Program-made: the position numbers and the translations under genes
Source: Lachnospiraceae bacterium UBA1818
Lineage (GTDB): Bacteria; Bacillota; Clostridia; Lachnospirales; Lachnospiraceae
NCBI GenBank assembly: GCA_904419285.1
Contig: CAJFQZ010000004.1
Span: forward strand, 1 to 64,000
DNA length: 64,000 nucleotides
Direction of reading: 5' to 3'
Notes under the pieces: generated by a model
The model's database searches: none
What the model saw: only the letters and a program-made list of their open reading frames with translations
What the model was told of the DNA's origin: nothing
Shown here: piece after piece, positions 15,671-42,502 of the stretch
Layout of the letters: every line of letters starts with the position of its first letter
Position numbering within the stretch: the first letter of the stretch is position 1

Positions 15671-15748
15671 TAATAAAGCGGCTGTGCAGGCTTAACACTG
15701 TGAAATACAGTTTTACATAGATATTCTTAAGGAACAGGAGTGCAAAGG

Positions 15749-18700: not shown

Positions 18701-20437
18701 GCACAGCGGTTTGAGGTCCTGTACGTGGGAGACGGATATTATCAAATTCTGGCGGAGCATTCCGGCAAGGCCCTGGATATTCTCAATGCATCAACAGCCG
18801 GTGGGGCGAATGTCCAGCAGTATGATCAGAATGGGTCAGATGCACAGTTGTGGAGATTTATTGATGCAGGCGGCGGTACCGTTTATATTCAGTCAAAATT
18901 AGGGACGGTTCTGGACATAAGTGGAGCTGTTGCTGCGTCAGGGTCTAATGTTCAGATGAGTTCCGGTATGGGAATGAAACAAAGTCAGAAATGGGTTCTT
19001 GAAAAATCAGAGTACAGGCCGGTTGAGGACGGACTATATAGTCTGCGCAGTGCAGTACATACCGAATATGCTGTAGATATAGCGAATGCGTCTAAAGCGG
19101 ATAATGCAAATGCATGGCTGTACTATTACAATGGTTCGGAACCACAGCAGTTTGAAGCAGAGTATGTCGGAAATGGATATTATAAACTGACGGCTAAGCA
19201 TTCGGGTATGGTTTTAGAATGTGATTCTTCCACATACAAAGCAGGAGCAAATGTGAGACAGGGTGTGTGGGACGGCTCGGATGGCCAGCTCTGGAAGTTT
19301 GTTTCGGCGGGGAACAGCAGTTATTATGTGAAGTCAAAAACGGGAACCGTTCTTGATATCAACAGCGCTGTATATGCTGCCGGCACAAATGTCCAGACAT
19401 ATAAGGCGAATGGGACGGATGCCCAGAAATGGAAGCTGAATAAGGAGTATGAGAGAGTTGATATAGAAGAAGGCGTCTATACAATTCAGACTTCATTAAA
19501 CAAAGAACGCGTTTTGGATATACTGGGAGCTTCATCAGCAAATGGGGCAAATGTTCAGATATATACCAGCAACGATACATCGGCTCAGCAGTTTAAAATT
19601 ACAGCAGTCAGAGACGGATATTATAAAATTGAGAATATGTCCTCCGGAAAGGTGCTTGATATTGCGAATGCATCCCGTGCTTCAGGGGCGAATGTACAAC
19701 AGTACAGCTGGAATAATTCTGATGCACAGCTCTGGAGATTTCTGGATGCAGGAAACGGGAAATACTTTATCCAGTCAAAACTTGGAACGGTTCTGGATCT
19801 TCTGAACGCGGTTACTACTCCCGGGAATAATGTTCAGGCCTATGAACTGAACCTTTCAGACGCACAGAAATGGGTGCTGAGAAGCGAAGAGGTATTATAT
19901 AGAATAATGGGAGAAACATCCGTTACAGTTTCTCAGATGGTATCTTTTTACAAAGACAATGCAAAGGTATCCTATCCTTACGGCAAAACAGATGTACCTA
20001 CGATCAATGAGTTCTGCAAGATTTACATAGAGGAATGCGAGGCGGAGGGCGTAAAAGCTGAAGTTGCATTTGCACAGGCTATGATGGAAACAGCTTTTCT
20101 GAGATTCGGCGGAGAAGTTGACAAAGATCAATATAATTTCGCCGGTCTCGGAGCAGTAGGAAATGGAGTTAAGGGAGAGAGTTTTCCAGATATCAGGACT
20201 GGAATACGAGCGCAGGTTCAGCATCTGAAGGCCTATGCATCAACTGAGCCATTAAAGCTTGAACAGGTGGACAATCGCTTCGGATACGTGAAACGCGGTG
20301 TGGCTGAGTATGTGGAGTGGCTTGGAATGCAGGAAAATCCGAACTCAACAGACAGTGTAAAGTATGGATGGGCTTCGGTAGAAAATTATGGGTATAACAT
20401 AGTGAATTTATATATTACTCCGATGAAGGAGTATTAA
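15749..20437 (+). CDS. secreted amidase with six ricin-type lectin domains and a glucosaminidase
   Basis: A 1,562-residue cell-wall hydrolase. The ATG at 15749 is 8 nt after AGGAG and opens a signal peptide (KKIISKLTAVILLICMIAG). An acidic linker and a short beta-rich region follow. The amidase_3 domain (about 290-495) has zinc-ligand and catalytic positions in DPGHD, LREEDLTL, SFHLNS and VEHAFIS. Six ricin B-type trefoil domains of about 140 residues (about 509-1376) repeat the AQ(L/K)WKF/L and GYYKI motifs. A glucosaminidase-like domain follows (about 1385-1562; AFAQAMMETAFLRFGG, YNFAGLGA). It should cut both the stem-peptide amide bond and the glycan. The gene is monocistronic next to the polysaccharide locus, so the lectins may bind that polymer (inference). 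No sortase signal is seen. Confidence 0.9.
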   Translation: MKKIISKLTAVILLICMIAGNIPTGVVYGAESGQTGSGQTTVSDESEGNAEPDGQTEAEDNSSVSQGDEAGEAQASENETPDVSEETQESKVENSAVQSEEKEQATEEQPEEIDTYSEEQNDLHYIYIESPYLQTPGIQRIVFSFENAFENYEGISITVMNTEGVQEDWALSRNVDNLYLFEKQFDDETSTGVYEVISFNVERNGAVERIDADAFETEAQFGVNQEYQGIEELAPIDEEQAAEAADVDASVVTIDENGVTEAQDSIASALEEAGASTPTTFSDISGRSSDIVVALDPGHDSTHAGASAFGLREEDLTLKIANYCKEELETYAGVSVFMTRTSSACPHPGGSSGSDIAERAAAAAAAGAKIYVSFHLNSSTASSAAGAEVIIPNNNWKPQVGQDGRALAEQIMAELTKLGLADRGIYSKDTTINERYPDNSLSDYFAVQIYNKENGIPGIIVEHAFISNSNDVNRFLASESGLKQLGAADAAGIAKYLGLSKMGTKVSVKEGTYVIQSALVSDKVVEVPSASQNAVSIALGSKDESKSSQRFEIVSTGDGYYNIIAEHSGKALEVKGGSSAAGTAIQQNTLNRNSLAQKWCFMSAGDGYYYLCSALGTYMDVQSAVNSSGTPVWTYTFNGSTAQKWKLTESDYHPIANGTYTLGNGLNTNLVLDVDSASQADYANIQLYTSNNTSAQRFEITYAGGGYYKIIAEHSGKALDILNASNAGGANVQQYTWNGSDAQLWKFVDAGNGMYYVRSKLGTVLGLSKESAAAGTNVCMQNMSQTNSKKWRITESESRPIKDGKYVISNILSEYQVLCVKNGNVELGTYAGTGDQIFNIIYVGNGYYKIVSEATSKSFDVYSGLAAAGTNLREWTWNGSDAQLWKFIENGDGSFYIRSKLGTVVDVSGGVIQAGRNVQMYTMNGSSAQKWKLDSGRASVDTISIENGTYTIQNSTNTKQVLDVNSALTGNGANVQTYASNNTSAQRFEVLYVGDGYYQILAEHSGKALDILNASTAGGANVQQYDQNGSDAQLWRFIDAGGGTVYIQSKLGTVLDISGAVAASGSNVQMSSGMGMKQSQKWVLEKSEYRPVEDGLYSLRSAVHTEYAVDIANASKADNANAWLYYYNGSEPQQFEAEYVGNGYYKLTAKHSGMVLECDSSTYKAGANVRQGVWDGSDGQLWKFVSAGNSSYYVKSKTGTVLDINSAVYAAGTNVQTYKANGTDAQKWKLNKEYERVDIEEGVYTIQTSLNKERVLDILGASSANGANVQIYTSNDTSAQQFKITAVRDGYYKIENMSSGKVLDIANASRASGANVQQYSWNNSDAQLWRFLDAGNGKYFIQSKLGTVLDLLNAVTTPGNNVQAYELNLSDAQKWVLRSEEVLYRIMGETSVTVSQMVSFYKDNAKVSYPYGKTDVPTINEFCKIYIEECEAEGVKAEVAFAQAMMETAFLRFGGEVDKDQYNFAGLGAVGNGVKGESFPDIRTGIRAQVQHLKAYASTEPLKLEQVDNRFGYVKRGVAEYVEWLGMQENPNSTDSVKYGWASVENYGYNIVNLYITPMKEY
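17275..19880 (+). repeat. six tandem ricin-type lectin modules in coding sequence
   Basis: Six modules at about 17281-17690, 17719-18126, 18160-18543, 18592-19000, 19030-19437 and 19474-19881. Each has paired sub-blocks with conserved GYYKI-HSGK-LDI and GSDAQLWKF-LGTVLD segments. Modules 2, 4 and 6 look most alike, while module 3 is the most degenerate in its first sub-block. This is protein-level repetition; the DNA is diverged. Confidence 0.85.
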
Positions 20438-20606: not shown

Positions 20607-22439
20607 ATGTTAAAAGGAAAAGACAAAGAGAAACTTTTCGTCAATATCGGAAGCATGATATCTGCTTTTGCGGCAGTGTTCTCTGCAAACAAAATTCTGA
20701 CTGACGGTTCGCTCCGCCTGTCTGACAGCGTGATGTCTGTCATATTGTTTGCCGCGTTTTTTGCTGTTATAAAATATGCCATAGAAAAATGTCAGGAAAT
20801 TTCGTGGGCATTTGCAGTTGTTTCGGGAATCTTGTTTGCGGTTTTGTGGGTTCTTGGCGATAACCTGACTTCATCAGATTATACGATGATCGCATCGTGG
20901 AGAACATGGGCAAAAATAGTGCTGATAATCCCCCTTTTTATATCCGTTTTTCATATTCTGGAAAAGATGATTTTTCTGGCAGCAGAAAAATATAGAAACA
21001 GAACAGAAAATAGCCTTTTGAAAAATGATAAAGCGGGATTCATAATAACCTTCGTTCTTATATTGATCAGCTGGATCCCGGTTTTCCTCGCGGCTTTTCC
21101 GGGGATTTATGCCTATGATGCTGTTACCCAGACCGCTGAATTCTATGCGGATGCAGGATTGAGCGGGCATCATCCCATTGCGCATACGGCTCTTTTATGG
21201 GGACTGATCTCTCTTGGCAGGACTTTGTTCGGTTCTTATGGTGCGGGAATGGCTCTGTATTCTATCGTGCAGATGCTTATCATGGCATCCATTTTTGCTT
21301 ATGTGATCCATATGCTGAAGAAATGGAACTGCCCGAAGATCATCAGAGTGTGCTGCCTCCTTTTTTATATGTTTGTTCCGGTACATTCTGTGCTGGCGAT
21401 CAGTGCAACGAAGGACGTTCTTTTTTCAGGTTTTTTCACTCTTGTCGTTCTTTTTCTGGTGGATTTCAGTATGGATGCGGACAGCTTTATGAGGTCTCCG
21501 TTCAAATGGATTCGGTTTATACTTGCAGTATTCGCCATGGCGGCATTCAGGAATAATGGGATCTATGCGTTCGTTGTCTGTATACCGTTTATTATCTGGA
21601 CAGGCAGAAAGTATTGGAAGAAAGCGGTGGCTTTGTGTCTGTGCTGCATATTAATCTATGGAGTGTACAGCGGTCCGGTTAATACAATGCTGGGCGTGGA
21701 ACCGGGAAATTTCAGGGAAGCATTAAGTGTTCCTATCCAGCAGCTTTCCAGAGCAATGCTGTATAATTCGGATGAGCTGACAGCGGAAGAAAAGCAGAAG
21801 ATAGCGGAATTGATTCCGGATTATATGAATTATACTCCAAGAATATCCGACTCGACAAAAGGAACATTTCAGACTGAAAAGATGAAAGAAGATGTCATCG
21901 GATTTATAAAACTGTGGATCAGTGTCGGAATAAAAGCTCCGATCACCTATATTGATGCATTTATGAGCAACAGTATCGGGTTCTGGTATCCGGACATGCA
22001 GTATCCTGATTCGGGAGCGTTTCACGCGTATATCGAATATGAAAATACGCCCTATGACTTCCATACGGGTGGAGAATATGTCATGGATGATTCTTTTCTT
22101 CTGATCGAAAGAGACAGTAAACTGCCGGCGTTGGACAGGGCTCTGCACAACTGGGTCTATGATGTGAGCCACCAGCGGATCCCGGTTATTTCAATGCTTT
22201 TCAGTGTGGGAATGTATGCCTGGATCCTTCTTATCACAGTGATTTTATGCATCTGCAGGAAACAGTGGGAAATGCTTCCTGCCTGTATGTTTTTAGTCGG
22301 TCTCTGGCTGACGTTACTGCTGTCGCCGGTTGTCGTATACAGATATGGATATGCTTTGGGAATCTGTATCCCGGTTATGCTGGCAGTGTGCCTAAAATTC
22401 TGCTGTGGCACTGCCAAATGTGCGGGTTTGGCCAAATAA
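20607..22439 (+). CDS. DUF6020-like polytopic membrane protein (paralogue 1)
   Basis: A 610-residue protein with about 12 hydrophobic helices. An extracytoplasmic loop after a helix carries FPGIYAYDAVTQ, then HHPIAHT, SATKDVLFSGFF, FRNNGIYAF, a soluble segment (SVPIQQLSRAM to FWYPDMQYPD) and three C-terminal helices. The same motifs in the same order occur in the protein at 31837, so the two are paralogues. I connect it to the DUF6020 family found in surface-polysaccharide loci. An acidic residue in the first large outside loop followed by many helices resembles GT-C glycosyltransferases, which use polyprenyl-phosphate sugars; this is inference. It is the first gene of the operon, 80 bp before the ABC permease. 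Confidence 0.75.
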   Translation: MLKGKDKEKLFVNIGSMISAFAAVFSANKILTDGSLRLSDSVMSVILFAAFFAVIKYAIEKCQEISWAFAVVSGILFAVLWVLGDNLTSSDYTMIASWRTWAKIVLIIPLFISVFHILEKMIFLAAEKYRNRTENSLLKNDKAGFIITFVLILISWIPVFLAAFPGIYAYDAVTQTAEFYADAGLSGHHPIAHTALLWGLISLGRTLFGSYGAGMALYSIVQMLIMASIFAYVIHMLKKWNCPKIIRVCCLLFYMFVPVHSVLAISATKDVLFSGFFTLVVLFLVDFSMDADSFMRSPFKWIRFILAVFAMAAFRNNGIYAFVVCIPFIIWTGRKYWKKAVALCLCCILIYGVYSGPVNTMLGVEPGNFREALSVPIQQLSRAMLYNSDELTAEEKQKIAELIPDYMNYTPRISDSTKGTFQTEKMKEDVIGFIKLWISVGIKAPITYIDAFMSNSIGFWYPDMQYPDSGAFHAYIEYENTPYDFHTGGEYVMDDSFLLIERDSKLPALDRALHNWVYDVSHQRIPVISMLFSVGMYAWILLITVILCICRKQWEMLPACMFLVGLWLTLLLSPVVVYRYGYALGICIPVMLAVCLKFCCGTAKCAGLAK

Positions 22440-22518
22440 GGATGATTGTCTTGAAATATGCGGATGAATGGCGTATACTTATACAGAATGTAAAAAATAG
22501 AAAGAAAAGGTGGAGCTA

Positions 22519-23322
22519 ATGTATATAAAAAATATATTAGACAATTTTAAAAAGTATTCGTTTTTGTTGAAACAATTGGTTGCCAGAGATTTTAAAGTCA
22601 AATATAAACGGTCTGTGCTGGGAGTTCTCTGGAGCCTGTTATATCCGGTGCTGATGATGGCTGTCATGGCAGTCGTGTTTTCAAATGTGTTTAAGTTTTC
22701 TGTTCCGGGCGTGAATTACCTGGTTTACCTGATGACAGGCTTAACCTTCTTCAACTACTATAATGAGGCATCAAATCTTGCAATGAGTTCGGTAGTAGGG
22801 AACTTCTCTCTTCTGAATAAAATTTATATTCCGAAGTATATTTTCCCTTTGTCAAAGTGTCTGTTTGTGGGGATTAACTTTCTGCTGACGTTGATTCCGC
22901 TTTATGCGGTTATTCTTCTGAGCGGAAGCGGGGAGACAAAATGCCATATTACGGTAATCCATCTGCTGCTGCCGTATTCTTTCCTCTGCCTGCTCATATT
23001 TACAATCGGCATTAGTTTTATACTGTCTACAATATCCGTTTTTTTACGGGATATGTTTTACATTTATGGAATTGTTCTTACGATTTTGTCATACTTTACA
23101 CCGATTATGTATGACATTTCCATGCTGGATCCGATCATTCAGAAAGTGCTGAAGCTGAATCCGCTGTATCATTACATTACATTTGCAAGAACAATTATAC
23201 TGTATGATCAGGTTCCTTCACTGAGGAGTTTTGTGATCTGCGGCGCATCCTGCTTGATCGTATTTATTGCGGGTGTAATAATATTTAAGAAGAATCAGGA
23301 TAAATTTATCTATTATATGTAA
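22519..23322 (+). CDS. polysaccharide ABC exporter permease (Wzm/TagG type)
   Basis: Membrane half of an ABC-2 type exporter that moves undecaprenyl-linked polysaccharide or teichoic-acid polymer across the membrane. 267 residues from ATG 22519, chosen because AAAGGTGG precedes it, over the in-frame GTG at 22510. The N-terminal signature LVARDFKVKYKRSVLGVLWSL is typical, with six hydrophobic segments following. It is directly followed by its ATPase (19 bp), so the pair forms a complete exporter. TagG-like and Wzm-like functions cannot be separated from sequence alone. Confidence 0.92.
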   Translation: MYIKNILDNFKKYSFLLKQLVARDFKVKYKRSVLGVLWSLLYPVLMMAVMAVVFSNVFKFSVPGVNYLVYLMTGLTFFNYYNEASNLAMSSVVGNFSLLNKIYIPKYIFPLSKCLFVGINFLLTLIPLYAVILLSGSGETKCHITVIHLLLPYSFLCLLIFTIGISFILSTISVFLRDMFYIYGIVLTILSYFTPIMYDISMLDPIIQKVLKLNPLYHYITFARTIILYDQVPSLRSFVICGASCLIVFIAGVIIFKKNQDKFIYYM

Positions 23323-23341
23323 TATAAATTTGGAGGAAATT

Positions 23342-24088
23342 ATGATTGAAGTTCAAAACGTGTCAATGCGGTTTAATCTGGGAATCGAGAAAAATAATTC
23401 TCTTAAACAGATGGCAGTGGATTTGTTTAATAAAAAGGCAAGAGAGAAGAAAAAAAAGAATAATGAATTCTGGGCGCTGCAGGATGTGAGCTTTAAGGTA
23501 GAAAAAGGAGAGGTGCTTGGCTTTGTCGGATCGAACGGAGCCGGAAAGTCGACATTACTTAAAATTGTAGCCGGTGTTATGAAACCCACAAAGGGAAAAG
23601 TACTGGTTGGCGGAAATATCTGTCCGATGATCGAACTGGGGGCAGGATTTGATTTGGATCTGAATGCAAGGGAGAATATCTATCTGAATGGTGCTGTCAT
23701 GGGATACTCCAAGAGCTTTCTGGACAGTAAATTTCAGGAAATCGTAGATTTTTCTGAACTGCAGGATTTCCTTGATGTGCCGGTGAGAAATTTCTCCTCA
23801 GGTATGGTTGCCAGACTTGCTTTCTCGGTAGCTACGATTGTTGATCCTGAAATCCTGATCGTGGATGAGATTCTGTCAGTAGGAGATTTGAACTTCCAGA
23901 ATAAGAGTGAGAATAAAATGAGAAGCCTGATTTCCGGAGGAACTACTGTTCTGTATGTGTCTCATTCTATAAAATCAATTGAAAGTCTTTGCGACCGCGT
24001 AGTATGGCTTGAGCATGGAAAAGTCATTATGGTGGGAAAGACGGATGATGTCTGCAAAGCTTATTATGAGAGCCAGATGGGCAAATAG
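23342..24088 (+). CDS. polysaccharide ABC exporter ATPase (Wzt/TagH type)
   Basis: Cytoplasmic ATPase powering the exporter encoded just upstream. 248 residues from ATG 23342 (GGAGG 5 nt upstream); an in-frame TTG at 23330 is less likely. Walker A GSNGAGKSTLLK is near residue 63, the signature FSSGMVARLAF near 155 and Walker B ILIVDEILSVGD near 178. It ends soon after the nucleotide-binding domain, so it lacks the C-terminal carbohydrate-binding domain of long Wzt proteins. Chain recognition is therefore unlikely to come from this subunit. Confidence 0.93.
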   Translation: MIEVQNVSMRFNLGIEKNNSLKQMAVDLFNKKAREKKKKNNEFWALQDVSFKVEKGEVLGFVGSNGAGKSTLLKIVAGVMKPTKGKVLVGGNICPMIELGAGFDLDLNARENIYLNGAVMGYSKSFLDSKFQEIVDFSELQDFLDVPVRNFSSGMVARLAFSVATIVDPEILIVDEILSVGDLNFQNKSENKMRSLISGGTTVLYVSHSIKSIESLCDRVVWLEHGKVIMVGKTDDVCKAYYESQMGK

Positions 24089-29420: not shown

Positions 29421-30539
29421 ATGAGAAAGATAAAAGTAATGACTGTATTCGGGACAAGGCCGGAAGCGATAAAAATGGCTCCTGTCGTGAAAGAACTGCA
29501 GTCACGTGATGAGATTGAGGAAATAACATGTGTTACAGCACAGCACCGGCAGATGCTGGATCAGGTCCTTGAGACATTTAAGATCACGCCGGATTATGAT
29601 CTGGATATCATGAAACAGGGACAGACATTAAACGATGTGGTACAGAGAGTGCTGGGGAAGATCGGAGAAGTGCTTGAGAAAGAAAGACCGGATATTGTGC
29701 TTGTACATGGTGATACAACGACAACATTTGCAGGAGCTCTGGCAGCATTCCACAGCCAGATTGCGATCGGGCACGTTGAGGCAGGACTCCGTACATGGAA
29801 CAAGTATTCTCCATATCCGGAAGAAATGAACCGTCAGATGGTAGGATGTCTTGCAGATATGCATTTTGCTCCGACAAAAGTCAGCGCACAGAATCTTCTT
29901 CGTGAAGGCAAGGATGAGAAGAATATCTATATTACCGGCAATACGGCGATTGATGCAATGTCTACTACTGTAGACAGTGATTATAAGAATCCTATTTTTG
30001 ACTGGATCGGAGAGGACCGCATGATTCTTCTCACGGCGCACAGAAGAGAAAACCTTGGTGATCCCATGTATCACATTTTCCGTGCGATCCGCAGGATAGT
30101 GGATGAGTTTGATGATGTAAAAGTTATTTATCCGATACACTTGAATCCGCGCGTAAGAGAGATTGCAAATGACGTTTTTGAGGGTTGCGACAGAGTCCGT
30201 CTGATCGAGCCGCTGGAAGTATTTGATTTCCACAATTTCCAGAATAAGAGCTATCTTATAATGACAGACAGCGGCGGAATTCAGGAAGAGGCTCCTTCGC
30301 TTGGAAAACCGGTACTTGTCCTTAGAGATACAACTGAAAGACCGGAAGGGATTGAGGCGGGTACGCTGAAACTGACCGGAACGGACGAAGAAGTGATCTA
30401 CCGGGAGACAAAAAGGCTGCTTACGGATCCGGCAGAATATAATTCAATGAGTCATGCGAGCAATCCCTATGGAGACGGCCATGCAAGTGAGAGAATTGTA
30501 GATGCTATCATAGAGAGATTCAGCTATCTTTTAAAATAA
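29421..30539 (+). CDS. wecB: UDP-N-acetylglucosamine 2-epimerase (non-hydrolysing)
   Basis: Interconverts UDP-GlcNAc and UDP-ManNAc in the cytoplasm. 372 residues, the family size. Motifs: VFGTRPEAIKMAPVV at the N-terminus, LVHGDTTTTFAGALAAF, HVEAGLRTWNKYSPYPEE, LTAHRRENLG and TDSGGIQEEAPSLGKPVLVLR. UDP-ManNAc is the donor used by TagA/WecG-type enzymes, and one of these lies at 37788, so the polymer probably contains ManNAc (inference). AGGAG precedes the ATG. Confidence 0.96.
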   Translation: MRKIKVMTVFGTRPEAIKMAPVVKELQSRDEIEEITCVTAQHRQMLDQVLETFKITPDYDLDIMKQGQTLNDVVQRVLGKIGEVLEKERPDIVLVHGDTTTTFAGALAAFHSQIAIGHVEAGLRTWNKYSPYPEEMNRQMVGCLADMHFAPTKVSAQNLLREGKDEKNIYITGNTAIDAMSTTVDSDYKNPIFDWIGEDRMILLTAHRRENLGDPMYHIFRAIRRIVDEFDDVKVIYPIHLNPRVREIANDVFEGCDRVRLIEPLEVFDFHNFQNKSYLIMTDSGGIQEEAPSLGKPVLVLRDTTERPEGIEAGTLKLTGTDEEVIYRETKRLLTDPAEYNSMSHASNPYGDGHASERIVDAIIERFSYLLK

Positions 30540-31836: not shown

Positions 31837-33681
31837 ATGACAGAAAACATAAAACAGTTAAGAAAGAGACAACATCTGACAACAGCCTTGAGTTTCCTCT
31901 TAGGATTTCTGGGGACATGCGGCATTGCTTTTTATGGAAAGACAGGGTCTGAAATTAGTGTTTATCAGGAAAACTTTACGAACAGTGTCCTGTATCTTGC
32001 ACTGTTTTATCTGTTGACAAAAGGCTGGAAGAGCGTCTTAAATACAGCAGAAAAGAGAGTATCTGCAGCAGCTGCCATAAGCGGGTTTATATGTGCAGCG
32101 CTGCTTGTACTTGGCGCTCAGCTGGATTATGACAGCTCGATTCAATGGAATTACGCTACAGTAGTAAAGATCATCCTGCTGGCACCTGTGCTCCAGATGC
32201 TGATCTGCTTATTGTTTTTATATGTTGAAAGACATAAAGAACGCGTTCTGGAATTGAATATCAGTGCCGGAATGCAGAAGGTTATTGTATATTTTGCTAT
32301 TTTAGCAGTATGGGGAATTACCTATCTTGCACTTTTTCCCGGAGTTTACGGATATGACGCTCCATACCAGATCCTGCAGGCATTAGGAGAAATGGAAGTT
32401 ACTACTTATCAGCCTGTTCTGCACACTTTTATTATGGGAAAATGCGTGCAGCTTGGGCACATTCTGTGTGGAAGCTATGAAATCGGCCTTGGTATCTATT
32501 CATTTCTTCAGATGGCATTTCTTGCCTATGCAGCGATGAAAGTATGCATGTATGCATGTTCGAGAACAAGAAATTATTTATGGCTTCTCGGGACAGTTCT
32601 GTTTTTTGTACTGTTTCCCTTACATGGCGTGCTGGCGGTATCTTCTACGAAGGATATAATATTTACCGGTATCTTTGCATTGATCTTCATCAAGGTTTTG
32701 AGGTTGACGGAGAATCCGGAAGGCTTCTGTGATTCAAAGAAAGATATTATTGAGTACTGCATTCTGCTGTTCTTTCTATTTTGGTTCAGGAGCAATGGAA
32801 TTTACATTTTAATTTTTATGATTCCATTCCTTATTATCCTGCTGAGAAAGCATAGAAGAATATGGAAACGGATGCTGCTGTTCACTGTCCTGCCAATAGC
32901 GGCTTTTCTCATCACAGAGAATGCTGTTATGACAGTTTTTGACATTGCTCCGGGACCGGGAATCAGAGAGATGCTCAGCATTCCGTGTCAGCAGCTGGCA
33001 AGGGCTTATGATTATCATTATGATACTTTTACGGATGAAGAAAAGAAAACTCTATTAGAAATCATTCCGGAAGAAAATTTGGAATATCATACCTCCAGGC
33101 AGATGATATCTGACAGCATTAAAGTGGGGCTGGATACTGAAAAACTGATGGAAGACCCGCTGAAATATATTTCCTTGTATTTCAAGATTGGATTAAAAAA
33201 TCCTAAAAGCTACATTGAGGGTGCCATGCTCAGCTGTCTGGCTACGTGGTATCCTGATAAATACTATCAGGATGACCGCCAGTATCATCCCTATATTGAA
33301 ATTGATATGATAGACGCTAAGACATATAATTCCAGATATCTTGAGCTTGAAAGATACAGCGCCATTCCCGCGTACGAGAAAGCACTGACAGATTTATTTC
33401 AGGAAGCGCAGTGGATGCGGATCCCGATCATATCTTCATTGTTTACTCTGGGGACATACGTGTGGATCCTGTTCCTTTGTTTTGTGTATATTTTGGTCAG
33501 GAAGGCATACAAATATCTGCTTCCGATTAGTCTTCTGATCGGATTGATCATCACGATTATCCTGGGGCCGGTATCGCTGATCAGATACGGGTATCCGCTT
33601 ATATTTATAATACCGTTAGTGCTTACGCTATTCAGGATAAAAACAGTGAACAATAGTGGTGATGAAAGAATTGAGAGATAA
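31837..33681 (+). CDS. DUF6020-like polytopic membrane protein (paralogue 2), candidate GT-C transferase
   Basis: A 614-residue paralogue of the protein at 20607, from ATG 31837 after AGGAAG; an in-frame TTG at 31801 lies inside the previous gene. About 12 hydrophobic segments. Shared motifs are FPGVYGYDAPYQ, YQPVLHT, SSTKDIIFTGIF, FRSNGIYIL, SIPCQQLARAY, EEKKTLLEIIPEE and ATWYPDKYY. The next two genes encode a GtrB-like polyprenyl-phosphate glycosyltransferase and a GtrA-like flippase, in which setting the third gene is usually an extracytoplasmic GT-C transferase. That role is inference from order and topology. Confidence 0.75.
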   Translation: MTENIKQLRKRQHLTTALSFLLGFLGTCGIAFYGKTGSEISVYQENFTNSVLYLALFYLLTKGWKSVLNTAEKRVSAAAAISGFICAALLVLGAQLDYDSSIQWNYATVVKIILLAPVLQMLICLLFLYVERHKERVLELNISAGMQKVIVYFAILAVWGITYLALFPGVYGYDAPYQILQALGEMEVTTYQPVLHTFIMGKCVQLGHILCGSYEIGLGIYSFLQMAFLAYAAMKVCMYACSRTRNYLWLLGTVLFFVLFPLHGVLAVSSTKDIIFTGIFALIFIKVLRLTENPEGFCDSKKDIIEYCILLFFLFWFRSNGIYILIFMIPFLIILLRKHRRIWKRMLLFTVLPIAAFLITENAVMTVFDIAPGPGIREMLSIPCQQLARAYDYHYDTFTDEEKKTLLEIIPEENLEYHTSRQMISDSIKVGLDTEKLMEDPLKYISLYFKIGLKNPKSYIEGAMLSCLATWYPDKYYQDDRQYHPYIEIDMIDAKTYNSRYLELERYSAIPAYEKALTDLFQEAQWMRIPIISSLFTLGTYVWILFLCFVYILVRKAYKYLLPISLLIGLIITIILGPVSLIRYGYPLIFIIPLVLTLFRIKTVNNSGDERIER

Positions 33682-33698
33682 ATATGGAGGAACTGAAA

Positions 33699-34646
33699 AT
33701 GGATAAGATAGCAGTCCTGATTCCGTGTTATAACGAGAGTCAGACGATTGAAAAAGTAGTAACAGACTGGAAAAAGGAGCTTCCGGAGGCTGTCATCTAT
33801 GTTTATGACAACAATTCTACCGATAACACGGCAGAGATTGCCAGAAATGCCGGAGCGGTAGTGCGTTACGAGTATCAGCAGGGAAAAGGAAATGTCATCC
33901 GGAGAATGTTCCGTGAGATTGATGCGGAATGTTACGTCATGGTGGACGGGGATGATACCTATCCGGCAGAATTCGGACGTGAAATGGTTTCTAAAGTACT
34001 TGACAGAAAGGTTGACATGGTTGTGGGCGACAGGCTTTCTTCCACTTATTTTGAAGAAAATAAACGCCCTTTCCATAATTTCGGAAACAGCCTTGTGAGA
34101 GGAACGATCAATCGGCTTTTCAAGAGTAATATCCGGGATATTATGACAGGTTACAGAGCGTTCAGCTATCTGTTTGTAAAGACATTTCCGGTGCTCTCCA
34201 AAGGATTTGAAATCGAGACAGAGATGAGTATTCATGCGGTTGAGAAAAATATGCTGGTGGAGAATGTGATCATTGAATACAGAGACCGTCCGGAGGGCAG
34301 CGAGTCCAAATTGAATACTTATTCCGATGGAGCGAAGGTCCTCGGAACAATCGCGCGCCTGTACAAAAATTACAGACCGTTCCGGTTTTTCGGTATCGTG
34401 GCACTGCTTCTCATGATTATTTCAGCGGTTATGTTTGTACCGGTGTTAGTGACGTATATTCAGACGGGTCTTGTGCCGAATTTCCCGACACTGATCGTGA
34501 GCGGATTTGTGGCTCTGGCTGCGATCCAGTCGTTTTTCGCAGGACTGATCCTGACTACTCTGGTAGAGAAGGACAGACAGGACTTTGAGTTCAAACTCCA
34601 GATGGCAAGTAACGGAAGGAACAGGGAAAACGATGAAGAGAAATAG
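33699..34646 (+). CDS. GtrB/DPM1-like polyprenyl-phosphate glycosyltransferase
   Basis: A GT2 enzyme expected to load a sugar onto undecaprenyl phosphate on the inner leaflet. 315 residues from ATG 33699 (GGAGG upstream); the in-frame ATG at 33684 lies before the ribosome site. Motifs: VLIPCYNESQTIEKVV, YVYDNNSTDNTAEIA, metal-binding DGDDTYPAE, GDRLSS and the DPM-like EIETEMSIHA. Two C-terminal hydrophobic segments (about 232-255 and 265-290) anchor it, as in GtrB/CsbB. The 3' end overlaps the GtrA-like gene by 14 bp, suggesting coupled synthesis of the pair. Confidence 0.88.
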   Translation: MDKIAVLIPCYNESQTIEKVVTDWKKELPEAVIYVYDNNSTDNTAEIARNAGAVVRYEYQQGKGNVIRRMFREIDAECYVMVDGDDTYPAEFGREMVSKVLDRKVDMVVGDRLSSTYFEENKRPFHNFGNSLVRGTINRLFKSNIRDIMTGYRAFSYLFVKTFPVLSKGFEIETEMSIHAVEKNMLVENVIIEYRDRPEGSESKLNTYSDGAKVLGTIARLYKNYRPFRFFGIVALLLMIISAVMFVPVLVTYIQTGLVPNFPTLIVSGFVALAAIQSFFAGLILTTLVEKDRQDFEFKLQMASNGRNRENDEEK

Positions 34647-35034
34647 CAGGAATCTGTTTCAGCAGATCATCAAATTCGGATTTGTCGGAGGAACTGCTTT
34701 CATTATTGATGCGGGTGTACTGTTTATACTGACAGAATTCTTTAATATTCATTATCTGATTTCCGGTGCGATCTCGTTTACCGTGTCTGTGATATATAAT
34801 TATATTCTCAGTGTCAGATGGGTATTTGACGCCAGAACAGATGTGAATAAAGCACAGGAACTGACAGTATTTATCGGTCTCAGCGTGATCGGTCTCGGAC
34901 TGAATCAGGTGTTGATGTGGATCTTTGTTGACAAGCTGAATATTTATTATATGCTGTCAAAGATCATCGCGACAGCGATTGTGATGGTATATAACTTTAT
35001 TACAAGAAAACTGTTTATTGAACGAAAGAATTGA
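34633..35034 (+). CDS. GtrA-family membrane protein (putative lipid-sugar flippase)
   Basis: A 133-residue four-helix protein of the GtrA family, which is thought to flip polyprenyl-phosphate-linked sugars across the membrane. The family start is IIKFGFVGGTAFIIDAGVLFIL, with ISFTVSVIYNYILSVRWVF and the end FITRKLFIERK. ATG 34633 is preferred because it follows AGGGAAAA and opens the homology; the frame is open back to 34585 inside the preceding gene. Overlap with the GtrB-like gene is strong context support. Confidence 0.92.
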   Translation: MKRNSRNLFQQIIKFGFVGGTAFIIDAGVLFILTEFFNIHYLISGAISFTVSVIYNYILSVRWVFDARTDVNKAQELTVFIGLSVIGLGLNQVLMWIFVDKLNIYYMLSKIIATAIVMVYNFITRKLFIERKN

Positions 35035-35088: not shown

Positions 35089-36228
35089 ATGAAAGATCGG
35101 AGAAGAATGCATCGAAGATATTATCAGAAACGTTTAAAACACAGAAAACATAAGCTTCGAAAAACAGTCTTTGCAGTACTTATCCTTCTGTTTGCACTGC
35201 TGATCGGATTATTGGTGAAAGTCGTGTTGTTCCCGAAGGAAGATGGAAAAGAAAAGAATCGGCACGAAGACAATACTTCCGCAGATTTGACAGGGGATGA
35301 TCAGAAGGAACAGAAGAGCACGGCGGTTATTACCCTGAATGGTGAGAATTCGATTGAGATTAAACTGGGAGAAGAATACATTGATCCCGGATATTCTGCA
35401 GCTGATAAAGACGGGACTGATCTGACAGCTCAGGTCCAGGTAGACAGCAGTGCGCTGAATCGTGCAGGAGAACAGCAGATTATTTACAGCGTGAAGGACA
35501 GTAAGGGACGGGAGGCACAGGCGGTCAGAAAAGTGACGGTGCTTCCGAATACAGAATATGATACTCCGGGACTGCCTATATGTATGTATCATTATGTGTA
35601 TGATCCGGCCAGTCCGCCGGACAATCTGGACAGCAACTTTATCTCCACGGATTCTCTGGCGGAGGAGATGAAATATCTCCATGATAATGGATATTATTTT
35701 CCGACCTGGCAGGAAGTGCGGGATTATGTAGACGGAAAACTGATCCTTCCGGAGAAAAGTATTGTCCTTACTTTTGACGATGGACCGAATTATATGTATC
35801 TGGGGATTCCGATCCTGGAGCAGTACCAGACTCCGGCCACATCTTTTGTGATCACAAGTTACTGGAATGACCGGGAGATGCTCTATGGATATGCGAGTGA
35901 TTATCTGACTTTTGAATCTCATTCTCATAAGATGCACCAGGGCGGCGGCAGTATCGGACATGGCGGGATTTACACAGCGATGACCAGGGAGGAAGTACTC
36001 GCTGATTTGGAACAGTCTTTTGAAATCTGCGGAAACAGAGATGCTTTTGCTTATCCATTCGGGGATTATACGGAAGAAGGCTGCAGTACTCTGGAGGAGG
36101 CAGGACTGCTCTGTGCTGTAACTACGGAGAATGCAAAATGTTATCCGGGGGATAACCCATATATTCTCCCGAGGGTGAGGATGCTTGGCACGCAGACACT
36201 GGCTTCCTTTATTTCGGCAGTTAATTGA
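35089..36228 (+). CDS. membrane-anchored polysaccharide deacetylase with Ig-like domain
   Basis: A 379-residue extracytoplasmic enzyme. A very basic N-terminus and one transmembrane helix (about residues 26-45) are followed by an Ig-like (DUF5011-type) domain of about 75 residues with EEYIDPGYSAADKDG. The NodB-type deacetylase domain is at about 165-379: the metal and catalytic motif TFDDGP near 228 and the His motif ESHSHKMH near 280. It removes acetyl groups from an N-acetylated polysaccharide, probably the polymer made here or peptidoglycan glycan. It is the last gene before the terminator at 36241. Confidence 0.9.
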   Translation: MKDRRRMHRRYYQKRLKHRKHKLRKTVFAVLILLFALLIGLLVKVVLFPKEDGKEKNRHEDNTSADLTGDDQKEQKSTAVITLNGENSIEIKLGEEYIDPGYSAADKDGTDLTAQVQVDSSALNRAGEQQIIYSVKDSKGREAQAVRKVTVLPNTEYDTPGLPICMYHYVYDPASPPDNLDSNFISTDSLAEEMKYLHDNGYYFPTWQEVRDYVDGKLILPEKSIVLTFDDGPNYMYLGIPILEQYQTPATSFVITSYWNDREMLYGYASDYLTFESHSHKMHQGGGSIGHGGIYTAMTREEVLADLEQSFEICGNRDAFAYPFGDYTEEGCSTLEEAGLLCAVTTENAKCYPGDNPYILPRVRMLGTQTLASFISAVN

Positions 36229-36431: not shown

Positions 36432-37787
36432 ATGACATTTATGGAATCGAAGGGATTGGAACAGTATAAACGACTGATCCGTTTTGCATTTAATATTATT
36501 CTGTTGATCTGTCTGATGGGGATATTCATCCATGTCTGGGATATGAACTACAATGATGAGATCGTGTTTCCTTTCTATTATAAAGGTTATCTGATGATGG
36601 GGGCGTTTTATGCCTTTTTCTTTGTCATTTTTTCTTATATTCTCGGGGGTATGAAGATCGGTTATCTGAAGAGCAGCAGCCTCCTGCTGTCGCAGACGAT
36701 CGCTCTGTTCGCGACAAATGTGTCCATCTATCTTGAGACAGTGCTCCTGTCGGCGAGATTTGTTAAGGTCGTTCCCATGATCGAACTTACAATGGTGGAC
36801 ATTTTCATCATAGTTCTGTGGACATTTGTGGTCAACCGCATTTTCAGAAAGCTTTTTCCGCCCCATTCCATTATCCTGCTGTATGAGGAATATGACCCGA
36901 CGCCGCTTCTCAAGAAGGTCAATTCGAGAAGAGACCGGTATATTATCAAGAAATCCATGAATGTGGAAGAGGGCTGGGAGAAGGTTACCGAGGAAATCAT
37001 GAATTATGATGCGGTGTTCCTGTGCGATATCCATTCTCCGCTGCGTAACAGGTATGTAAAATTCTGTTATTCAAAAGGCATCCGTTCCTATATCACTCCG
37101 AAGATATCTGATATTATTATCAGGAGTTCAGAGAATATACATCTTTTTGACACGCCTCTCCTGCTTTCGCGCAATCAGGGGTTCAGTTTTGAGGAAAAAT
37201 TTGTCAAGAGACTGATGGATATCATCATTGCATCACTGGCGCTGATCATCACCTCTCCGATCATGCTCATCATCGCAGCGGCGATCAAGCTGTACGACGG
37301 CGGTCCGGTCTTTTTCCGTCAGGACAGATGCACGATCAACGGGAAAGTGTTCTCCATCCATAAGTTCCGCAGTATGATCGAGAATGCGGAAAAAGAAGGA
37401 GAGGTCATTCCGACGACGGAGGATGACCAGAGGATCACTCCGGTCGGCAAATTTATCAGGAAGACCCGTCTGGACGAACTTCCGCAGTTCATCGATATCC
37501 TGAAAGGCGATATGAGCGTAGTCGGCCCGCGGCCGGAGAGAGTGGAGCATGTACGCCAGTATACTGCGGAGATCCCGGAGTTTGAATACAGACTTAAGGT
37601 GAAGGGCGGTCTGACCGGCTATGCACAGATTTACGGGAAGTATAATACAAGCGCGTATGACAAGCTGAAGCTTGACCTGATGTATATACAGAACTATTCG
37701 ATCCTGCTGGATCTGAAGCTGATCATTATGACAGGGAAGATCGTGTTCATGAAGGAAAGTACGGAAGGATTTGAGGAGAAAAAATAG
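36432..37787 (+). CDS. polyprenyl glycosylphosphotransferase (priming enzyme)
   Basis: Starts polymer synthesis by placing a sugar-1-phosphate on undecaprenyl phosphate. 451 residues: four N-terminal hydrophobic segments, a middle soluble domain, and the bacterial sugar transferase domain from about 257: KRLMDIIIASLALIITSP (anchor helix), FFRQDRCTINGKVFSIHKFRSM, RKTRLDELPQFIDILKGDMS, VGPRPER and GLTGYAQIYG. The initial ATG follows AAAGGA closely; ATG 36441, three codons later, is also possible. It is first in its operon, directly upstream of a TagA-type gene, and the order is consistent with early steps of assembly. Confidence 0.93.
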   Translation: MTFMESKGLEQYKRLIRFAFNIILLICLMGIFIHVWDMNYNDEIVFPFYYKGYLMMGAFYAFFFVIFSYILGGMKIGYLKSSSLLLSQTIALFATNVSIYLETVLLSARFVKVVPMIELTMVDIFIIVLWTFVVNRIFRKLFPPHSIILLYEEYDPTPLLKKVNSRRDRYIIKKSMNVEEGWEKVTEEIMNYDAVFLCDIHSPLRNRYVKFCYSKGIRSYITPKISDIIIRSSENIHLFDTPLLLSRNQGFSFEEKFVKRLMDIIIASLALIITSPIMLIIAAAIKLYDGGPVFFRQDRCTINGKVFSIHKFRSMIENAEKEGEVIPTTEDDQRITPVGKFIRKTRLDELPQFIDILKGDMSVVGPRPERVEHVRQYTAEIPEFEYRLKVKGGLTGYAQIYGKYNTSAYDKLKLDLMYIQNYSILLDLKLIIMTGKIVFMKESTEGFEEKK

Positions 37788-38522
37788 ATGGCAGTCCGGA
37801 TGAGAACCTATTACGATAAGGCATATAAAGGAAAAAAGAAGGATTTCCTGAACCTTCTGAAAGAGAGGATCGACAGTGGGAGAAGGACGTTTGTGGTCAC
37901 CGCAAATCCTGAGATCTTCATGCTGGGAAGAAAACTGCCGGAGATGAATGAAGCGCTCAGCGATGAGGAGACGCTGATCGTCCCGGACGGAATCGGCGTT
38001 ATCCGCGGCGGAAAGCAGCTGGGGTACGAGTTCGAAGAGCGGATCCCCGGAGTAGAGATCTGTGAGGAGCTGTTCGCCTATGCGGATCAAAAAGGGCGTT
38101 CGCTCTATCTGTTCGGCGCAGAGAAAAGTGTGCTGGAAGATCTTGCGGCACGGGTCCGCAGGGAATATCCCAATGCGGTGCTGGCAGGCTGTACGGACGG
38201 CTACGTGCAGGATAAGGAGAAGGTGTTCCGTGAGATCGTGGAAATGCAGCCGGATATTGTCCTTGTGGCTCTGGGAGCTCCGAAGCAGGAGCTGCTGATC
38301 CACAGATATTACCGCCGGGGAGAAAAAGGGGTTTTTATCGGAGTCGGCGGAAGCTTTGACGTGCTGAGCGGACGGAAGAAGCGCGCGCCGTCTTTTTTTA
38401 TCAGACATAACCTGGAGTGGCTTTACCGCATTGCGAGCGAACCGAAGCGGCTGAAAAGGTTCTGGGACAGCAACATTAAATTTTTGTTCGAGTTAAGGAA
38501 AGAAAAACATGGGAATCGGTGA
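37788..38522 (+). CDS. tagA: WecG/TagA/CpsF-family glycosyltransferase
   Basis: GT26-type transferase that in teichoic-acid and ECA systems adds ManNAc or ManNAcA to a lipid-linked GlcNAc. 244 residues. Motifs: TANPEIFMLGRKLPEMNEAL, VPDGIGVIRGGK, YLFGAEKSVLEDLA, LVALGAPKQELLIH and IGVGGSFDVLSGRKKRAP. It begins immediately after the priming transferase stop. With wecB in the same locus a ManNAc step is the simplest reading, but the donor is inferred. It overlaps the next gene by 14 bp. Confidence 0.9.
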   Translation: MAVRMRTYYDKAYKGKKKDFLNLLKERIDSGRRTFVVTANPEIFMLGRKLPEMNEALSDEETLIVPDGIGVIRGGKQLGYEFEERIPGVEICEELFAYADQKGRSLYLFGAEKSVLEDLAARVRREYPNAVLAGCTDGYVQDKEKVFREIVEMQPDIVLVALGAPKQELLIHRYYRRGEKGVFIGVGGSFDVLSGRKKRAPSFFIRHNLEWLYRIASEPKRLKRFWDSNIKFLFELRKEKHGNR

Positions 38523-41076: not shown

Positions 41077-41119
41077 TTAATGCAGGTAAAAAATAATATT
41101 CTGGTAAAGGTGTGTGGTT

Positions 41120-42502
41120 ATGTCGAAAAACGTGAGAAGGCGCGGCAGATGGCGTGCCCGTAGAAAACAGGGAAACTGGTTCACCAGAATGAAGGTGTGG
41201 CAGAGAGTGCTGGTCTGCTTTGCGGGAGTGCTGGTCTGTCTTTCAGCATCAGCCGCAGTCTATGTGGCTGCCCAGTGGGGCAAGATCGATACACGGGAGA
41301 TCCAGGCAGAAGATCTCATCATCAATCAGGATCTCCAGCAGAATGCGGATATCGATCTCGGCGAGGGGTACACGAACGTGGCTCTCTTCGGTGTGGACTC
41401 CAGGGACGGTAATCTGGGAGAGGGAAACCGGACTGACTGCATAATTGTGGCGAGCCTGAACAATGAAACGAAAGAGATCAAAATGGTCTCGGTATACAGG
41501 GACACGCTTCTGGATCTTTCGGACGGGACATTTCAGAAGTGCAATGCGGCATACAGCTACGGCGGTCCGGTCATGGCGATCAATATGCTGAACAAAAACC
41601 TGGATCTTGACATTCAGGACTATGTGACAGTGGACTTCGGCGCGATCGCCGACGCGATCGATCTTCTCGGAGGTGTAGAGATCGAAGTTACGGAGGCTGA
41701 ACTTCCCTACATCAATCAGTACATCCCGGAGACAGCGGCTTCGGCGGGAAAAGAAGCGCACTATGTTGAAAGTGCAGGGCTGCAGCTCCTGGACGGAACA
41801 CAGGCCACCACATATGCAAGGATCCGGTCAACGGCAGGCGGAGATTTTACCAGGACAGAGCGCCAGCGCACTGTGATCGAAAAGATGGTGGAAAAAGCAA
41901 AGAGTGCGGATCTTCTCACAATTAATAGTATTATCAATAAAGTTTTTCCACAGATCTCTACGAGTTTTACTCTGGCTGAGATCCTGAATTACGCATCTGC
42001 TTACAGTGAATATAAACTGATGGGAAATATGGGATTCCCGGCTGACAAGTCTACGGATACGATTTCCGGATTCGGAAGCATCGTGATCCCGGAGGATCTG
42101 ACATCCAATGTTGCGCAGGTCCATGACTTCCTTTTCGGTACGACGGGGTATCAGCCGTCATCTACAGTCACACAGCTGAGTGCGGATATTGCGTATACTG
42201 TCAGCTCGGCGGGGGCATCCTCAGGGGACAGCAGCGGCGACAGCTATTATGACAGCTCCGCTTCCGACGGGTATGATGATTATGACAGTTCCGGCTACAG
42301 TGACAGCTATGATTATTCTTCAGAAGAGGAAACGGAATATACACCACCTTCATGGGAAACGCAGTCTCCGGAACAGCCAGAGCCGGCTCCCGGAGGTGAG
42401 ATGGACACAGGCGGAACTGGAACAGGCAGCAGTGATGGGACCGACAGCGGCGGTTCAGACGGAGGAGAATCTTCCGGAATGGATACCACACCGGTCGAAT
42501 AA
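41120..42502 (+). CDS. LytR-CpsA-Psr (LCP) family protein with low-complexity tail
   Basis: A single-TM LCP protein of 460 residues, expected to ligate lipid-linked polymer to peptidoglycan outside the membrane. ATG 41120 follows AAAGG; GTG 41114 is less likely. A very basic N-terminus and one helix (about 27-48) precede the LCP domain (about 90-350: NRTDCIIVASLN, VSVYRDTLLDL, FGAIADAIDLLGGVEI, ATTYARIRSTAGGDFTRTERQR). The last 90 residues are Ser, Gly, Asp, Tyr and Thr rich, disordered and acidic. It sits at the end of the polysaccharide locus with its own promoter, and is a different subtype from the three-TM LCP at 14040. Confidence 0.93.
   Translation: MSKNVRRRGRWRARRKQGNWFTRMKVWQRVLVCFAGVLVCLSASAAVYVAAQWGKIDTREIQAEDLIINQDLQQNADIDLGEGYTNVALFGVDSRDGNLGEGNRTDCIIVASLNNETKEIKMVSVYRDTLLDLSDGTFQKCNAAYSYGGPVMAINMLNKNLDLDIQDYVTVDFGAIADAIDLLGGVEIEVTEAELPYINQYIPETAASAGKEAHYVESAGLQLLDGTQATTYARIRSTAGGDFTRTERQRTVIEKMVEKAKSADLLTINSIINKVFPQISTSFTLAEILNYASAYSEYKLMGNMGFPADKSTDTISGFGSIVIPEDLTSNVAQVHDFLFGTTGYQPSSTVTQLSADIAYTVSSAGASSGDSSGDSYYDSSASDGYDDYDSSGYSDSYDYSSEEETEYTPPSWETQSPEQPEPAPGGEMDTGGTGTGSSDGTDSGGSDGGESSGMDTTPVE

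Follow-up and report, generated by a model that had tools for sequence, protein, structure and literature searches.

A DUF6020 protein encoded with GtrB and GtrA as a candidate GT-C-type glycosyltransferase of a Lachnospiraceae polysaccharide cluster

The operon in the window

Three consecutive genes on the forward strand of a 64,000-nucleotide stretch of DNA from Lachnospiraceae bacterium UBA1818 (the window) encode a DUF6020 protein, a GT2 glycosyltransferase of the GtrB type and a GtrA protein (Table 1). They form a tight operon, with a gap of 2 nucleotides between the first two genes and an overlap of 14 nucleotides between the last two, since the likely ATG of GtrA is at 34633. The first gene starts at an ATG preceded by the purine-rich stretch AGGCAGGAAG, and residues 190–602 of its product match Pfam family PF19484 (DUF6020) at 6e-32 (111.2 bits against a curated cut-off of 28.3). 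No other Pfam family matches this product at E-values up to 0.1, YfhO (PF09586) and PMT_2 (PF13231) included. The second gene matches PF00535 at 3.2e-17 and shows the features of a GtrB-type enzyme: a GT2 domain, DNNSTD and DGD motifs, and hydrophobic C-terminal helices at 238–256 and 271–289. It may start at ATG 33684 or at a second ATG, 33699, which is preceded by GGAGG and could be the actual start codon. Its nearest NCBIfam model is AglJ (TIGR04182; 4e-62, 210 bits, below the equivalog cut-off of 325), and a search of the Protein Data Bank (PDB) at E-values up to 0.001 gave dolichol monophosphate mannose synthase (6.8e-8) as its only relative. GtrA matches PF04138 at 1.4e-28 (99.9 bits against a cut-off of 26.1).

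A sequence-only reading of this DNA had described this trio, with two C-terminal helices in the GT2 protein and an overlap of the last two genes, and the observation was confirmed. Its labels of 12 transmembrane segments for the DUF6020 protein and four helices for GtrA are fair, hydropathy giving 11–13 helices for the 614-amino-acid (aa) protein and 3–4 for GtrA, depending on the threshold. The grouping is more than chance, because [Ruminococcus] torques ATCC 27756 (locus L163) has the three genes in the same order, again as part of this longer cluster. In both places the genes for a predicted synthase, flippase and GT-C enzyme stand together, as in a multi-component transmembrane glycosylation system.

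Table 1. Features of the window and their supporting matches
Feature	Coordinates	Strand	Basis
DUF6020 protein, 614 aa, proposed GT-C glycosyltransferase	31837..33681	+	PF19484, topology, conserved residues, profile links
D174 codon, proposed catalytic base, predicted outside loop after first core helix	32356..32358	+	Asp 78/80, Glu 2/80
K272-D273 codons, near-invariant, predicted outer helix end	32650..32655	+	K 80/80, D 77/80
R583-Y584 codons, near-invariant, predicted outer side near C-terminus	33583..33588	+	R 79/80, Y 80/80
GtrB-type GT2, predicted polyprenyl-phosphate sugar synthase, 320 aa	33684..34646	+	PF00535, motifs
GtrA, 133 aa, proposed flippase of lipid-phosphate sugar	34633..35034	+	PF04138
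Second DUF6020 protein, 610 aa, also proposed to use this donor	20607..22439	+	PF19484 5e-51
ABC-2 permease and ATPase	22510..24088	+	Galactan and teichoic acid export models rank first in NCBIfam, below cut-offs
UDP-GlcNAc 2-epimerase WecB (source of UDP-ManNAc)	29421..30539	+	TIGR00236, 540 bits, over cut-off
Polyprenyl glycosylphosphotransferase, would start the polymer	36432..37787	+	PF02397 2e-66; TIGR03025 over cut-off
WecG/TagA/CpsF-family glycosyltransferase	37788..38522	+	PF03808 1.1e-55; TIGR00696 over cut-off
LCP-family ligase, would join the polymer to the wall	41114..42502	+	PF03816 1.1e-36; TIGR00350 over cut-off

Association of DUF6020 with one GtrB lineage

Two surveys were carried out. 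The family survey covered 250 genomes of the host bacterial family, one per genus, and the class survey 391 genomes. DUF6020 was scored over its curated cut-off, so that genomes G473 and G492 (family survey) and G098 (class survey) were counted as lacking it. In the family survey DUF6020 was found in 60 genomes and GtrB in 84, and both occurred together in 53, where 20 were expected. GtrB was thus present in 53 of the 60 genomes with DUF6020 but in only 31 of the 190 without it (odds ratio 39, p=1.5e-24). YfhO, used as a control and present in 187 of the 250 genomes, was linked neither to DUF6020 (odds ratio 1.14, p=0.42) nor to GtrB (odds ratio 1.23, p=0.31). The class survey gave the same picture, with GtrB in 17/18 genomes with DUF6020 versus 25/373 without (p=1.9e-17); outside the host family the figures were 8/9 versus 25/366 (p=1.3e-8) or, counted by genus, 8/9 versus 12/202. 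The dependence is one-sided, GtrB being frequently present without DUF6020. The GtrB relatives in the loci compared belong to a single close-knit lineage, with phmmer E-values of about 1e-110 or better before a drop to 1e-17, and 82 of the 84 GtrB genomes hold a single match at E-values up to 1e-40. DUF6020 matches number up to at least four per genome, gene pieces included; these copy numbers are lower bounds because at most four candidates per genome were scored in the family survey and at most three in the class survey. By these counts the DUF6020 family is tied to this GtrB lineage.

Gene neighborhoods were compared for 102 DUF6020 genes of at least 430 aa, taken from 99 genomic regions and the window; the scan of loci for relatives used a seven-sequence DUF6020 alignment. 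Matches in G007, G098, G099, G181, G223, G349 and G384 were left out of the 99 regions, as were gene pieces (G401:C33, G429:C29, G451:C46, G473, G492, G502:C14, G514:C50, G544:C6 and G617:C63). GtrB is the direct same-strand neighbor of 19 of the 102 genes and lies within two genes of 23, and GtrB or another membrane-anchored GT2 adjoins 31. Most DUF6020 genes thus stand apart from a donor gene, and few have GtrA nearby. The trio recurs in the same order in L163, which holds the closest relative of the window protein, and in L148 and L169; other close relatives have GtrB and lack GtrA. Outside the host family, seven loci have an adjoining GtrB or membrane-anchored GT2; within two genes, GtrB is found in six of them and GtrA as well in four. 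A set of 191 non-redundant DUF6020 genes, in which 80 loci selected as relatives of the window protein are included, has GtrB downstream in 40 cases and upstream in 31, and overlaps of a few bases occur. A single GtrB gene surrounded by four DUF6020 genes is found in Limosilactobacillus oris DSM 4864 (L210:1900-10437). Change counts on the tree, taken without a shuffle control, were 38 for nearness of GtrB and 11 for nearness of GtrA.

Two further observations concern these loci. Adjoining one DUF6020 gene is a 353-aa protein with GT2 (2.5e-15) and GtrA (1.1e-9) domains in one chain (L153:9871-10932), which was counted as GT2 and not as GtrA. Pattern and tblastn searches of viral contigs found no DUF6020 relative; three short unannotated phage records and one Collinsella record turned up, and were not read as a sign of mobility.

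The place beside GtrB is also held by other proteins. Of 69 GtrB places without a nearby DUF6020, six fell in regions already covered and G506, G565 and G604:C2 were left out, so that 60 loci, with no adjoining DUF6020 by Pfam, were analysed. A large polytopic neighbor, meaning a directly adjoining same-strand protein of at least 380 aa with at least seven helices, was present in 24 of the 60, giving 26 proteins. By Pfam these comprise three DUF2142, two YfhO, two DUF6044 and one DUF6056 protein, and 16 have no accepted Pfam name, one of which (L297) scores with PMT_2 below its cut-off. We take DUF2142, DUF6044 and DUF6056 to be GT-C families. One of the two YfhO genes (L284, L285) overlaps GtrB by four bases; in L309 the neighbor is matched by the DUF6020 profile built here, not by Pfam, and in L291 a shorter DUF2142 protein, GtrB and GtrA follow one another. 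YfhO and PMT-2 are named as GT-C enzymes, YfhO as a partner of such lipid-sugar enzymes (PMC8035078), and the type-specific Gtr enzymes as GT-C (PMC11127046). Since YfhO and similar proteins hold the same place beside GtrB elsewhere, DUF6020 occupies the slot of a GT-C enzyme, a slot that is not filled by GT-C-type proteins alone.

Kinship, topology and divergence of DUF6020 proteins

When 80 aligned DUF6020 sequences were run one by one against Pfam at E-values up to 0.1, four touched PMT_2 (best 1.2e-5) and three touched DUF2142 (best 1.2e-7). One protein, G401:C6, passes the PMT_2 cut-off (32.7 bits versus 26.1); none of the DUF6020 proteins of the host genome does. Profile comparison with hhalign gave, with DUF6020 as query, scores of 43 for DUF2142, 42 for PMT, 41 for PMT_2, 39 for GtrII and 33 for YfhO, and, with these families as queries, 64, 42, 46, 46 and 44. 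Eight non-GT-C clusters (MATE, Wzx, three acyltransferase, MBOAT and two ABC membrane clusters) scored 15–23, and the six GT-C-labelled clusters differ from the eight otherwise labelled (p=6.7e-4), DUF6056 being the one not separated from the controls at 23.2, equal to MBOAT. In the profile alignments the DUF6020 aspartate D174 falls on an aspartate of GtrII, and the HHPxxHT region on HPPLG of PMT. A PDB sequence search with the DUF6020 protein of the operon gave no match. These comparisons point to a detectable sequence link between DUF6020 and accepted GT-C families. Many of the high scorers among the 39 clusters compared with DUF6020 lack a Pfam name, including the top one (69.5, 94%), a polytopic family of about 533 aa (L133:4846-6486 and 11 relatives).

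The predicted topology places the most conserved residues on the outer face. The loop at 166–193, which holds P168, G169, D174 and Q178, is predicted to lie outside, with a mean of 0.4 lysines and arginines between inside loops with 5.5 and 3.3. If 194–235 is read as a single crossing, K272-D273, R318, E378, R389, D426, K429, P578, R583 and Y584 fall on the same side, with E378, R389, D426 and K429 in a 170-residue loop (365–534). Of 26 near-invariant residues, 19 would lie in outside loops and none in the six predicted inside loops. In some relatives the four helices ahead of residue 146 are absent or show little conservation, so that D174 follows the first core helix. A catalytic aspartate after the first helix is described for GT-C enzymes (PMC11127046), and the predicted topology of DUF6020 likewise has an aspartate, single and not part of a DxD motif, in the outside loop that this core helix leads into.

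Comparison with the syntenic cluster of R. torques suggests that the DUF6020 gene has diverged more than most of its neighbors. Of 15 window genes compared, 12 are 61–88% identical to their counterparts, the LCP gene being compared over a cut piece; GtrB is 86% and GtrA 76% identical, whereas DUF6020 is just 35% identical. For an 890-aa double glycosyltransferase, the R. torques match is only the counterpart of another gene. GtrB has a median identity of 64% over 71 adjacent pairs, and DUF6020 one of 24%. A conserved GtrB beside a varied DUF6020 is the pattern that would be expected of a shared donor with acceptor-specific transferases. A mirror-tree comparison of DUF6020 with GtrB (r=0.69, 0/1000 permutations as high) was given no weight, because common descent by itself produces such a correlation.

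The flanking genes (Table 1), which also include an FAD protein, GT4 enzymes and a second LCP ligase (two LCP ligases in all), suggest that the cluster makes a polysaccharide linked to the wall. The second DUF6020 protein of the window, absent from the earlier reading, shares 33% of 572 aligned positions with the first; its gene has no adjoining GtrB or GtrA and stands before the ABC exporter. It is directly preceded by a gene (15740–20437) for a 1565-aa protein with amidase and glucosaminidase domains and 13 ricin-type lectin stretches. Right after GtrA, positions 35089–36228 encode a polysaccharide deacetylase with a bacterial Ig-like domain, which has no counterpart in the R. torques stretch compared. 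A third DUF6020 copy of the host genome (contig C19, 66682–67583; L154), with a DUF2142 match at 3.4e-9, looks broken or misassembled, as it is matched in two frames. On host contig C5 (L155:5265-9363) the gene for a 1033-aa YfhO-GtrA fusion (YfhO 4.1e-35, GtrA 1.5e-18) overlaps another, distant GT2 gene, and the two make up a conventional system of their own in this genome; open reading frames of about 1000 aa matching both YfhO and GtrA recur across the host family.

A proposed glycosylation module, its alternatives and known systems

The data presented above have led us to propose, with good confidence, that the trio is a transmembrane glycosylation module in which the DUF6020 protein is a GT-C-type enzyme that uses the lipid-phosphate sugar made by GtrB, on an outside acceptor that is most likely a wall polysaccharide. 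GtrB would load undecaprenyl phosphate, on the inner side of the membrane, with one sugar taken from a nucleotide sugar, and GtrA would carry the lipid-linked sugar across the membrane, a step for which the flippase may be encoded at a distance elsewhere in the family. At the outer face DUF6020 would transfer this sugar from the lipid to the outside acceptor, most likely the polysaccharide of the surrounding cluster, D174 probably acting as the base. Several DUF6020 enzymes would draw on the one GtrB of their genome, in the present case including the product of 20607–22439. Catalysis, the flippase step, donor sharing and the acceptor are proposed roles, and it is the surrounding gene cluster that points to a wall polymer as the most likely acceptor. 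The wider claim, that the whole family is GT-C and depends on a single conserved GtrB, its fast-diverging transferases adding the same sugar to different outside acceptors, stands in our judgement about evenly between true and false. If it is true, surface glycans would change when one transferase replaces another, with the donor machinery left as it is.

Several results weigh against this proposal. Seven of the 60 DUF6020 genomes of the family survey lack this GtrB, and the co-occurrence statistics allow for kinship by taking one genome per genus alone, not by a species tree. Neither GtrB nor another membrane-anchored GT2 directly adjoins 71 of the 102 DUF6020 genes or the second copy of the window, and a Collinsella copy stands alone among unrelated genes. 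A Wzx-type protein (L286) and an acyltransferase, one each of the 26 polytopic neighbors, also adjoin GtrB. In the kinship scan 4/80 sequences touch Acyl_transf_3 (best 0.0014) and 2/80 touch Wzy_C (PF04932, best 0.014). With DUF6020 as query, hhalign probabilities reach at most 48% for labelled families (5% for YfhO, 1% for DUF6056), and the non-GT-C clusters served solely as templates; since other GT-C queries score 30–31 against such clusters (PMT with Wzx, DUF2142 with MBOAT), near the 33 between DUF6020 and YfhO, the link to YfhO is weak by itself. A PDB search with the 80-sequence profile found no GT-C chain, the best matches being a sucrose transporter (0.0054) and receptors. At a lower threshold 194–235 shows two helices, which would flip everything downstream. 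As for GtrA, it is found in 59/60 genomes with DUF6020 versus 174/190 without (p=0.054), a comparison that says little because 233 of the 250 genomes have it; it lies within two genes of just 8/102 DUF6020 genes, 7 of which also have a membrane-anchored GT2. The sequence-only reading had cast DUF6020 as the third, GT-C-type partner of GtrA and GtrB. Co-occurrence, the shared slot, profile links and topology support this for GtrB, whereas the family, put to the gene-neighborhood check that this reading had itself named, proved largely independent of GtrA, which was dropped as its partner, co-occurrence being uninformative and adjacency rare.

Other functions for DUF6020 have to be considered. 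Were it a polymerase or ligase of the Wzy/WaaL type, acting on lipid-diphosphate-linked glycans and merely sharing polysaccharide clusters with GtrB, the Wzy_C matches and the many genes apart from a donor gene would be accounted for, as would the predicted loop at 365–534, since Wzy and WaaL proteins have a long outside loop between helices. We regard this as improbable in view of the specific dependence across genomes on one lineage of GtrB, a family that makes monophosphate donors, of the aspartate after the first core helix, and of the better links to PMT_2 and DUF2142, although the hhalign comparison held no Wzy-labelled cluster. A role as transporter or flippase of the lipid-linked sugar, with GtrA as a helper of GtrB, would suit a polytopic protein that stands beside GtrB at loci mostly without a nearby GtrA, as well as the sucrose transporter match and the Wzx-type neighbor of GtrB in L286. 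Such a role seems very unlikely, given that DUF6020 scores just 15–22 in profile comparison with MATE, Wzx and ABC membrane clusters, that its near-invariant charged residues are all on the predicted outer face, and that YfhO, a described GT-C enzyme, takes the same position next to GtrB.

It is equally hard to believe that genomes rich in surface-polysaccharide genes simply carry both families without a functional link. Both do occur in polysaccharide clusters, and their association is uncorrected on a species tree; however, YfhO, also a surface-glycan family, is associated with neither, and the operons are tight, with few-base overlaps and GtrB on either side of DUF6020. A GT-C enzyme that acts on some acceptor other than wall polysaccharide, such as an exported protein, lipoteichoic acid or a glycolipid, is a minority possibility that deserves more weight: the AglJ model nearest to the GT2 gene belongs to archaeal protein glycosylation, the PDB relative of that gene makes dolichol monophosphate mannose, and the PMT families include, by their Pfam names, protein mannosyltransferases. 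Against it, the genes of the cluster would start, build, export and wall-anchor a polymer and are mostly kept in R. torques.

The proposal provides a testable function for DUF6020, a family still named by number in a public record, and names its candidate donor, the product of one GtrB lineage; neither the family name nor the accession PF19484 was found in any paper of the open-licence PMC literature, subscription papers lying outside the search. It also suggests a modular route by which gut Firmicutes may vary surface glycans, for which the R. torques cluster is a ready comparison.

Among known systems, CsbB/GtcA/YfhO of Bacillus subtilis and Staphylococcus aureus (PMC8035078) likewise combines a membrane-linked synthase, a GtrA-type flippase and a polytopic transferase, and the GtrB lineage described here adjoins YfhO in L284 and L285. 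Here, in contrast, the transferase is a DUF6020 protein without a PF09586 match, and the host has its YfhO-GtrA fusion elsewhere. The gtrA-gtrB-gtr(type) operons of phages and enterobacteria (PMC11127046, PMC7117936) have three genes with a type-specific transferase, as here, and DUF6020 is profile-linked to GtrII (PF14264), but the DUF6020 trio lies in a chromosomal polysaccharide cluster of a Firmicute. The GT136 pentofuranose systems, as described in PMC11127046, share a lipid-phosphate donor, a flippase and a GT-C enzyme with a proposed catalytic aspartate after the first helix; a conserved Arg-Tyr pair, a possible parallel, occurs in both (R349-Y350 in GT136, R583-Y584 in DUF6020), while the GT136 donor synthase is of the phosphoribosyl type and the flippase a MATE protein. 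AglJ, the nearest named model of the GT2 gene, differs in that the gene found here is bacterial and has a GT-C-type partner. In Lactococcus lactis, CflA works with CsdAB, CsdCD and CsdEF (PMC8035078), so that one component is common to several donor/transferase pairs; there the flippase is shared, whereas DUF6020 systems would share the donor synthase. The candidate new three-component system of the sequence-only reading is thus not new as a scheme, which is well known in general (PMC8035078); what is new is a proposed further GT-C family within it, tied to one GtrB lineage.

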